A DNA stretch of 64,000 nucleotides. It comes from Spartobacteria bacterium LR76. GTDB lineage: Bacteria > Verrucomicrobiota > Verrucomicrobiia > Chthoniobacterales > Terrimicrobiaceae. Location of the stretch: contig QAYZ01000016.1 of assembly GCA_003054655.1 (NCBI GenBank), positions 620,001 through 684,000 on the forward strand, read 5' to 3'. How positions within the stretch are numbered: the first letter of the stretch is position 1; each line of letters begins with the position of its first letter. The position numbers and the translations under genes were made by a program. Below, one piece after another: positions 31,708 through 34,446 of the stretch. The notes under the pieces were generated by a model. It saw only the letters and a list, made by a program, of their open reading frames with translations. It was not told the origin of the DNA and ran no database searches.

Positions 31708-31980
31708 GGTTGATAGAGAGGACGCCGATTCTCCAAAGCGCACCCTCTTGGTCAAGTGCAATTAATATGCAGTATCAAAAGGGAAGCATAGCGAGATACG
31801 AATTTTGAAATTTTCGCATTTGCGAAGACCCCCTGATCATGGGAAATAGGCGGGATCAGTAACGGACTTTACAACTGGGAGAAGCCCTCCCGTTCTCGAC
31901 GCAAGAAAAAGCCCCTCCTCACTCGATGGTGGTTTTACGCGCCCTTCGCGCTTATCGCCATCGGGGCGTTTGGTGCGTGG

Positions 31981-34446
31981 GTGGCATGGCTCATCTTTTC
32001 TGCGCAGTTTCGCCAGTCTGCGGCGCAGTTTGATTTGTCGCAGATGGATAAGATGGAAGCGGCTTCGGTTATTTTCGACCGGGACGGAGTAGAGATCGGC
32101 AAGATCTTCATCCAGAACCGCCATCCCGTGCCTCTCAGCAAAATATCGCCATGGATGGTAAAAGCGGTCATCGCTGCGGAGGATAACAAGTTCTACGAGC
32201 ATGGCGGCGTGGACTATATGGGTGTCCTTCGTGCCGCCCTGGCCAACTATCGCCGCGGCAAGATCTCGCAGGGTGCCAGCACGGTGACCCAGCAGTTGGC
32301 GCGCAATTCCTTCGAACTGCGGGAGCGCACGTACAAGCGCAAGTTTGTGGAAATGTTTCTCGCCCAGCGTATCGAGGAAAACTTCGACAAGGATCAGATC
32401 ATGGAGATGTATCTGAACCGGGTTTATTTCGGCAGCGGCTTCTACGGAGTGGAGGCGGCGGCGAAGGGATACTTCGGCAAAAGCGCTCTGAACCTCGACC
32501 CCGGCCAGGCGGCGGTATTGGCTGGCCTTTTGAAAAGCCCTCAGGCGCTCTCGCCGTGGAATAACAAGGAGGGGGCAACCCAGAACCGCAATTTCGTCCT
32601 GCGCCGCATGAAGGAGCAGGGATTCCTCACCGGCAAGCAGTTGGACGAGCAGATCAGCACCCCTCTTTATGTGCTGAAGCGCACGAATCCCTTCAAGGTC
32701 TCATATGCGGTGGATTATATCCGCCAGCAGGCGGTGGCTGCTTTGGGCTACGAGCGGGCCATGAATGGCGGGTTCCGCATCGACACCACTCTCGACCTGA
32801 AAATGCAAAAGGCGGCGGAGCAGTCGATGCGCGATGTGCTGGCCAAGGTGGAGCGCCTGCCCGGCTATTCTCATCCGACTTTTGAGTCCTACCGGGCTGC
32901 CTCCAAGCAGATCGAGGACCAGATCAACAAGGGCAACATGTCGGTCAAGATGCCGGAGCCGAAATATCTCCAGTGCGCAGTCATGGCTCTGGATAACTCG
33001 ACTGGCGGCATCCTCACGATGGTCGGCGGCAGGGATTTCAAGCACAGCGAATACAACCGCGCAACCATGGCGCGACGCCCGATCGGCACGGCATTCGTTC
33101 CGTTCGTCTATGCGGCGGCATATGAGAAGGGGATCTTCCCTGGGCAGATCGTGGAGGATTCCTGCATCGATAATCGCTACGTCATGGTCGGCGGTGACAC
33201 CGGCATCCTGGGAGAATGGGGCGTCGAGACGGCTAATAACGAATATGACGGGCCGATGACCACCCGCGAAGCTCTGGCCAGGGGCAAGAATGCGGCAACC
33301 GTGCGTCTCGGCTTCATGGCTGGACTCGATCAGGTCAAGAAGGTCTCGGAGGCCTCCGGTATCACGTCGCCGCTGCGCAACTATGCAAACTCTTTCCTCG
33401 GCAGCAGCGAAGCCACGCTGCAGGAGGTGACTCTTGGCTACACGGTGTTCCCCAATGGCGGCTGGCGGCCGAAGGAGCCCTTCATCATCCAGCGCATCAC
33501 GGATGCCGAAGGGCGCATCGCATTCTCTTCCGAGAAGCAAAAGGTCAAGGCGCTCAGCCCGGAAGCGGCTTATCAGACCCATGCTGGACTCGTGGACGCC
33601 CTCCAGAAGGGGACCGGGTCCATCGCCTACAATGAGTATGGACTCGGCCGTTTCCCGGCAGCGGGCAAGACCGGCACAGCGTATAATTTCACCGACACCT
33701 ATTTCTTCGGCTACGATAGCTCGGTGACCTGCGGCGTGTGGGTCGGGTTTGATCGGCCTACGAAGATCTTTCGCGGAGCTTTTGGCCGCGACCTGGCCCT
33801 TCCCATCTGGAGCAAGGTGATGAATGCCGCGGCGGAGGAACTGCCTGCGACGGATTTCAAACGTCCCGACACTCTCAAGGCGGTCGAGATTTGCAGTGTC
33901 TCGGGTCTGCTCGCCACTCCTCAGTGCCAGCAAAACCTGCGCAATACCTCCGCTGGTGCCAGCAACAAGATGGCGTATACCTACACCGAGTGGGCCACCT
34001 CAGCCCAGTTGCCGACAGTGGCGTGCGATATTCATGGCGGCGGACTGCGCAACTATGCCAAGGCGTACAATCAGGAGGAGTGGCCGCGTGCGACGCTCGC
34101 GGTGGACCTCGCCACGATCCGCCCGATCGCCATGGCGGAGCCTACGCTTCTCGGCTTGAGCGATGTCTACAACTCCGTGCGGCCGGACGCCCAGCGTTTC
34201 GACGAAAACATCCCGGTGGCCAAGGCCATCCCGGTGACTCGCGAGGACAGGGGCGAGGCTCCGGCACAGGCTCCCCAGGAGGGGGCGGCACCATCTGCTC
34301 CCGTGGCGGAGACAGTGAGTGATGCGCAGCCGACCCCGGTCGGTCCTGAACCGGAGGTGCGGCGAGCCGAGGCAGTGAAACCGCTCGATACGCATTTCGA
34401 TGCGCCCGCGATTTCCGCCCCGACCCCGGAGCCGATTAATTTCTAG
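31981..34446 (+). CDS. Class A penicillin-binding protein homologue with degenerate transpeptidase domain
   Basis: Membrane-anchored peptidoglycan glycosyltransferase (GT51) of at least 821 aa. The glycosyltransferase part is intact (VIAAEDNKFYEHGG with catalytic Glu67, QGASTVTQQLARN, IMEMYLNRVYFG). In the transpeptidase half the SxxK motif is TAFV (residues 370-373), SxN is GKN (435-437), while KTGTA is kept, so crosslinking activity is doubtful. The GTG at 31981 cuts through the membrane anchor: the same frame runs upstream to 31837 and encodes a basic tail (NWEKPSRSRRKKK) plus the anchor, but has no ATG, GTG or TTG. The tail is Pro/Ala-rich; the 3' end overlaps ribD. Confidence 0.88.
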   Translation: MAWLIFSAQFRQSAAQFDLSQMDKMEAASVIFDRDGVEIGKIFIQNRHPVPLSKISPWMVKAVIAAEDNKFYEHGGVDYMGVLRAALANYRRGKISQGASTVTQQLARNSFELRERTYKRKFVEMFLAQRIEENFDKDQIMEMYLNRVYFGSGFYGVEAAAKGYFGKSALNLDPGQAAVLAGLLKSPQALSPWNNKEGATQNRNFVLRRMKEQGFLTGKQLDEQISTPLYVLKRTNPFKVSYAVDYIRQQAVAALGYERAMNGGFRIDTTLDLKMQKAAEQSMRDVLAKVERLPGYSHPTFESYRAASKQIEDQINKGNMSVKMPEPKYLQCAVMALDNSTGGILTMVGGRDFKHSEYNRATMARRPIGTAFVPFVYAAAYEKGIFPGQIVEDSCIDNRYVMVGGDTGILGEWGVETANNEYDGPMTTREALARGKNAATVRLGFMAGLDQVKKVSEASGITSPLRNYANSFLGSSEATLQEVTLGYTVFPNGGWRPKEPFIIQRITDAEGRIAFSSEKQKVKALSPEAAYQTHAGLVDALQKGTGSIAYNEYGLGRFPAAGKTGTAYNFTDTYFFGYDSSVTCGVWVGFDRPTKIFRGAFGRDLALPIWSKVMNAAAEELPATDFKRPDTLKAVEICSVSGLLATPQCQQNLRNTSAGASNKMAYTYTEWATSAQLPTVACDIHGGGLRNYAKAYNQEEWPRATLAVDLATIRPIAMAEPTLLGLSDVYNSVRPDAQRFDENIPVAKAIPVTREDRGEAPAQAPQEGAAPSAPVAETVSDAQPTPVGPEPEVRRAEAVKPLDTHFDAPAISAPTPEPINF

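Follow-up and report, generated by a model that had tools for sequence, protein, structure and literature searches.

Class A penicillin-binding proteins (class A PBPs, aPBPs) are textbook bifunctional enzymes. Genome surveys count every aPBP gene as both a polymerase and a crosslinker, and one of them assigned a classical wall to Akkermansia for this reason (PMC8406291). Transpeptidase-dead forms are available as laboratory mutants: E. coli PBP1b S510A and pneumococcal PBP2a with an inactive transpeptidase polymerise without crosslinking, which other transpeptidases can then do (PMC5089857, PMC4632607). E. coli PBP1b S510A can polymerise and another transpeptidase can take over (PMC5089857), and the pneumococcal class B PBPs PBP2b and PBP2x were active together with a class A PBP that carried a mutationally inactivated transpeptidase (PMC4632607). 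E. coli PBP2 also interacts with PBP1A (PMC4632607), and in C. difficile the transpeptidase activity of PBP1 is dispensable for division and needed for growth (PMC12539705). Two further systems are relevant here, the SEDS-class B pairs (RodA-PBP2, FtsW-FtsI), in which a polymerase is combined with a monofunctional class B transpeptidase, and the monofunctional glycosyltransferases MtgA and SgtB.

We analysed a stretch of 64,000 nucleotides from Spartobacteria bacterium LR76 (contig QAYZ01000016.1, positions 620,001 to 684,000; hereafter the window), which encodes an aPBP that resembles each of these systems in part. With the PBP1A family (E. coli PBP1a and PBP1b, A. baumannii PBP1a) it shares the anchor, the GT51 catalytic Glu, the transpeptidase fold and the KTG motif; unlike these proteins, it has lost the SxxK nucleophile and Lys and the Ser of SxN, and it has a clade-specific block where active paralogues show W-x-P-x-N-S-D. 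Like the engineered mutants it is predicted to polymerise without crosslinking, but in its case the dead state arose in nature, is ancient and has been conserved. The division of labour that we propose below resembles that of the SEDS-class B pairs, with the difference that the polymerase would be a GT51 protein with a pseudo-transpeptidase domain rather than a SEDS protein, and that fused versions exist. The likeness to MtgA and SgtB is limited to the predicted GT51 activity, whereas the whole transpeptidase domain is kept and strongly constrained. In the literature searched on inactive or fused aPBPs and on the walls of Verrucomicrobia, composed mostly of papers outside subscription, the protein, the fusion and the pairing with PBP2 are undescribed.

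The gene and its start codon

The open reading frame at 31981-34446 (+) encodes 821 aa when counted from its GTG. Upstream of this codon, an N-terminal tail (ISxxxYxWEK) and a membrane helix are conserved in the orthologues. GTG 31981 is therefore an unlikely start, because half of the membrane helix would be lost; the probable full gene and its features are listed in Table 1. Wherever the N-terminus could be read in orthologues from the window's family, ATC, ATA or ATT stands at the point where ATG-started relatives begin, and in several genomes of this family, the window included, no ATG, GTG or TTG was found in frame ahead of the membrane helix. These alignments suggest that the window's family uses a conserved non-canonical start codon, such as is known for infC.

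The conserved AUC/AUA/AUU position was observed in the window and in loci L009-L031, L034, L043 and L082, that is, in the window's family, in f9 and in part of f13. In most of the window's family it is preceded, at a distance of 16-18 nt and usually out of frame, by an element resembling [ATG]TGGAAAAT. The neighbourhood of the dead aPBP gene shows no conservation past the genus, save for ribD, which also occurs there in a single f7 genome, and a Methyltransf_28 gene, which is divergent in f4, f8 and f34.

Table 1. Location of the features of the window's aPBP, of PBP2-2 and of the fused genes in related families
Feature	Location	Strand	Basis or remark
Transpeptidase-dead class A PBP, probable full CDS	31855..34446	+	863 aa from ATC at 31855
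Probable non-canonical start codon ATC	31855..31857	+	orthologue alignment: begin-point of ATG-started orthologues (MPSQKYSWE, MNHYSWE)
Membrane anchor helix	31927..32025	+	orthologue alignment; model helix 2-34
Glycosyltransferase (GT51) domain	32095..32613	+	Pfam; catalytic Glu motif EDNKFYEHGG at 32179-32208
Transpeptidase-fold domain, catalytically degenerate	32977..33702	+	Pfam, predicted structure, structural alignment
SxxK position, T-A-F-V	33088..33099	+	alignment; Thr codon 33088-33090
GGDTGILGEWGVE block, dead clade only	33190..33228	+	replaces W-x-P-x-N-S-D segment of active paralogues
SxN position, G-K-N	33283..33291	+	alignment
KTG motif, kept	33667..33675	+	Lys 68/68, Gly 68/68 in clade
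PBP2-2, separate gene in window's genome	G000:C11:812849-814597
Fusion ORF	L136:3125-7177	-	Pfam domains
Fusion ORF	L137:2-3784	+	Pfam domains
Fusion ORF	L138:363-4223	+	Pfam domains
Fusion ORF	L139:524-4570	+	Pfam domains
Fusion ORF	L140:1-4026	+	Pfam domains

A class A PBP with a degenerate transpeptidase site

Pfam recognises both domains of the window's protein (Transgly, 2e-63; Transpeptidase, 1e-15), with a transpeptidase score (58 and 60.6 bits in two scans) far below the 219-266 bits reached by the genome's class B PBPs. The score against the NCBIfam family TIGR02074 (PBP_1a_fam) is 493.6 bits, below the curated cut-off of 508.75. The class A anchor, the GT51 domain with its catalytic Glu and the C-terminal penicillin-binding transpeptidase fold are all present, but the SxxK nucleophile and general base and the SxN motif of class A PBPs are missing. 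The protein does not belong to the MtgA type either, which is defined as GT51 without a transpeptidase domain, given its full transpeptidase fold. It ends in a C-terminal tail of about 130 residues modelled by AlphaFold with low confidence, and carries no fused class B module (PBP_dimer plus active transpeptidase).

The sequence-only reading of this gene had stated that SxxK is replaced by T-A-F-V and SxN by G-K-N, and that KTG and the glycosyltransferase site are intact. Alignment with solved PBP1a chains bears this out: GTAFVPF corresponds to GSSFKPF in the SxxK helix of E. coli-type chains, GKN falls in their SxN loop, and the KTG motif and the glycosyltransferase site are preserved. It had also been asked whether another SxxK could supply the catalytic Ser. 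The protein has only two other such strings, an SRRK within the cytosolic tail and an SSEK (position 33526) within a loop, and neither aligns with the catalytic helix.

It is well established for PBPs that acylation requires the Ser-Lys pair. As this pair is lost, the window's protein is expected to be incapable of both crosslinking and covalent penicillin binding. Its GT domain should polymerise.

Orthologues and the active paralogue

The collection of orthologues covered 58 relatives, 113 genomes of the class and a further sample of the phylum, Verrucomicrobiota. The clade of the window's protein (the dead clade) comprises 68 orthologues with a complete or readable site, drawn from the window's order and from two families outside it. 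All of them have Thr at the nucleophile position. Clade membership was initially set by this very Thr, but when the motif columns were removed from the tree, the same 48 representatives still formed one clade (support 99; this and the other support values are SH-aLRT from quick searches). The Lys of SxxK is lost in 63 of the 68 proteins and kept in five. At the SxN column, Ser is present in 29/68 and Asn in 52/68, while at the KTG column Lys and Gly occur in all 68 and Thr follows Lys in 66. The catalytic Glu of the glycosyltransferase is found in every member (68/68). Since none of the aligned orthologues in the clade keeps Ser, a sequence error is refuted as the source of the altered site.

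The sister of the dead clade is made up of 20 aPBPs with an intact catalytic site, which come from the same families. As the two are sister clades across the same families, the dead and the intact aPBPs are ancient paralogues, and an intact aPBP is also present in nearly all genomes that carry the dead copy. The window's aPBP is no isolated case but an ancient and conserved paralogue.

The five T-x-x-K members are L042, L044, L052, L056 and L057, from f8 and f6. By parsimony, the common ancestor of the dead clade already lacked the Lys of SxxK, which suggests that it was regained in these proteins. They bear on the idea that Thr acts as the nucleophile of a slow transpeptidase, at least in the T-x-x-K members, which besides Lys have SKN and K[TS]G. 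The window's protein, however, lacks this Lys and has GKN for SxN, and the basal loss makes the T-x-x-K state look secondary. To our knowledge, Thr does not normally substitute for Ser in SxxK enzymes, and we consider a Thr nucleophile highly improbable.

Fold of and selection on the dead domain

Within the genus, dN/dS is 0.013-0.026 for the transpeptidase domain, 0.018-0.034 for the GT domain and 0.045-0.089 for the C-terminal tail. Hence the dead transpeptidase domain is under purifying selection like the GT domain. AlphaFold (with 56 orthologues) modelled the whole transpeptidase domain with high confidence (pLDDT about 90+). In the model Thr heads helix 388-401, GKN lies between two helices and KTG is on strand 579-585, as in active PBPs. 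The VIA-align comparison gave Z 47.8 against 3ue1 (A. baumannii PBP1a) and Z 45.7 against 4oon (380 residues, 1.9 A). An invariant block peculiar to the dead clade, DNR..GG..GILGEWG.E, occupies the place that W.P.NSDg takes in the active paralogues; positions 33190-33228 hold the core of this block.

The claim that transpeptidase chemistry is lost and the glycosyltransferase retained is thus well supported by the 68 orthologues, the structure prediction and dN/dS. The overall pattern in the transpeptidase domain looks like re-use rather than decay. A sequence error or a decaying pseudogene, for which only the altered motifs would speak, can be ruled out: the same state recurs in 68 genomes, the frame is intact and the transpeptidase dN/dS is about 0.02.

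Fusions of aPBP and PBP2 in related families

In related families we found single open reading frames of 1261-1380 aa that join a GT51 domain and a degenerate transpeptidase to a complete PBP2. In total there are eight such proteins in seven genomes of six families (f14, f17, f25, f27, f36, f38). Five of them (L136, L137, L138, L139 and L140) were recognised by their Pfam domains, and L120/G130, L141 and L142 by motifs or by a profile hit within one and the same frame. The pseudo-site of the fusions has LLQP for SxxK and MTG or similar for KTG. The fused class B module is intact (PBP_dimer plus Transpeptidase, with PPGSxFK, S[MFY]N and K[ST]GT).

The two groups degenerated differently: in the window's clade Ser was replaced by Thr and KTG was kept, while in the fusions Lys was replaced by Gln and KTG was lost. 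A shared origin of the window's dead clade and the pseudo-transpeptidases of the fusions was examined in two trees (AU p 0.229 and 0.239), which did not discriminate between the alternatives.

Another possibility is that the protein acts above all as a scaffold or stem-peptide sensor without enzymatic function, whose KTG pocket would bind D-Ala-D-Ala ends without cleaving them and regulate the GT or other synthases. Such a role would fit the invariant Lys and Gly of KTG, the nearly invariant Thr that follows (66/68), the invariant Thr at the nucleophile site and the block specific to the dead clade. Yet the catalytic residues of the GT are also invariant, so that polymerase activity is to be expected as well, and the KTG Lys is lost in the fusions. 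A mainly scaffolding or sensory function seems improbable to us.

PBP2-2 and its co-occurrence with the dead aPBP

The window's genome encodes three class B PBPs versus only two SEDS genes. In a tree of class B modules, one clade (PBP2-1) contains the genes adjoining RodA in f14, f17, f25, f27, f30, f36 and f38, where the f27 and f36 copies were assigned by position, being absent from the tree. The fused modules do not cluster with this RodA-adjoining PBP2 and group instead with a stand-alone PBP2, PBP2-2 (support 88), which was found in f1, f3, f7, f8, f15 and f34. On this tree, the fused PBP2 module is orthologous to stand-alone PBP2-2. In the window's genome PBP2-2 is a separate gene, not adjacent to that of the dead aPBP.

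A profile built on PBP2-2 and the fused modules separated the sequences of the class sample with a clean gap (at least 609 bits versus at most 537). With this profile, PBP2-2 was detected in 41/41 sampled genomes that carry a dead aPBP (as a separate gene in 34, fused in 7) versus 1/72 of the others; the fused part of this count is true by construction, so that the informative figure is 34/34. The Fisher p of 4e-30 for the co-occurrence is not a fair probability, as the genomes are related and the independent events few. Individual events carry more weight. Within the window's order, the reduced genomes G031 and G040 have lost both dead aPBP and PBP2-2. Conversely, all genomes of f15 retain the two, while no other (RodA-type) PBP2 above the cut-off was found in 15 of 17 f15 genomes; in two f15 genomes (G102 and G074) there is a single SEDS gene. 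A counter-example is G093, which has PBP2-2 without a dead aPBP.

The stand-alone PBP of G093 (L207:7810-9798) groups within the fused PBP2 modules, and fission or loss of an aPBP half is possible in this case. Among the 113 genomes sampled from the class, 64 have no detectable Transgly domain and thus neither aPBP nor MtgA.

Other crosslinkers are available in the window's genome (G000), namely the active aPBP and 13 proteins of the L,D-transpeptidase (YkuD) family. The dead aPBP could accordingly be a GT-only enzyme without a dedicated partner, its strands being crosslinked by whatever is present, notably by L,D-transpeptidases, as in the E. coli PBP1b-YcbB case, where PBP1b with an inactive transpeptidase supports YcbB-mediated crosslinking (PMC5089857). 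The median number of YkuD proteins is indeed 9 in genomes of the dead-clade families versus 2 in the others. However, this contrast is confounded by the 64/113 genomes without any aPBP, and several YkuD proteins also occur in aPBP genomes that lack the dead clade. Moreover, a partnerless enzyme leaves the PBP2 fusions and the 41/41 co-occurrence unexplained, and the peptidoglycan of Akkermansia, a genus not necessarily among the sampled genomes, is reported to be of type A1gamma with direct 4-3 crosslinks (PMC11382707). On balance we regard this explanation as doubtful.

As a main support for L,D-transpeptidases, the YkuD enrichment was weakened by the observation that most genomes with few YkuD proteins have no aPBP.

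Proposed mechanism and significance

We consider it probable that the dead aPBP and PBP2-2 form a split synthase, in which the former polymerises and the latter does most of the crosslinking. The intact GT51 domain would polymerise lipid II into glycan strands, while the transpeptidase domain, as a pseudoenzyme, would form no acyl-enzyme. The strands would be crosslinked mainly by PBP2-2 as a dedicated class B transpeptidase. PBP2-2 is a second PBP2 paralogue, surplus to the SEDS proteins (at most two, FtsW and RodA, versus three class B PBPs). The pseudo-transpeptidase domain would probably contact PBP2-2 physically and serve as a docking and substrate-presenting platform. In related families, both presumed partners are joined in one polypeptide (GT51, pseudo-transpeptidase and PBP2-2). 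The "structural role" suggested at first for the protein proved too vague; the gene fusions and the co-occurrence point more specifically to a division of labour with the class B transpeptidase PBP2-2. With regard to a third polymerase/crosslinker partnership, made of a GT51 pseudo-transpeptidase aPBP and an orphan PBP2-2, as two proteins or one fused protein, and retained in f15, we see the chances as evenly balanced.

A large bacterial lineage has thus long retained, alongside an intact aPBP, an aPBP that should not crosslink. Judging from its altered site, the dead aPBP should also escape inhibition by beta-lactams. If our proposal is true, the dead aPBP and PBP2-2 would represent a mode of wall building without a description in the literature searched. 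The natural PBP2 fusions provide a testable case both for direct coupling of an aPBP with PBP2 and for the function of a pseudo-transpeptidase.
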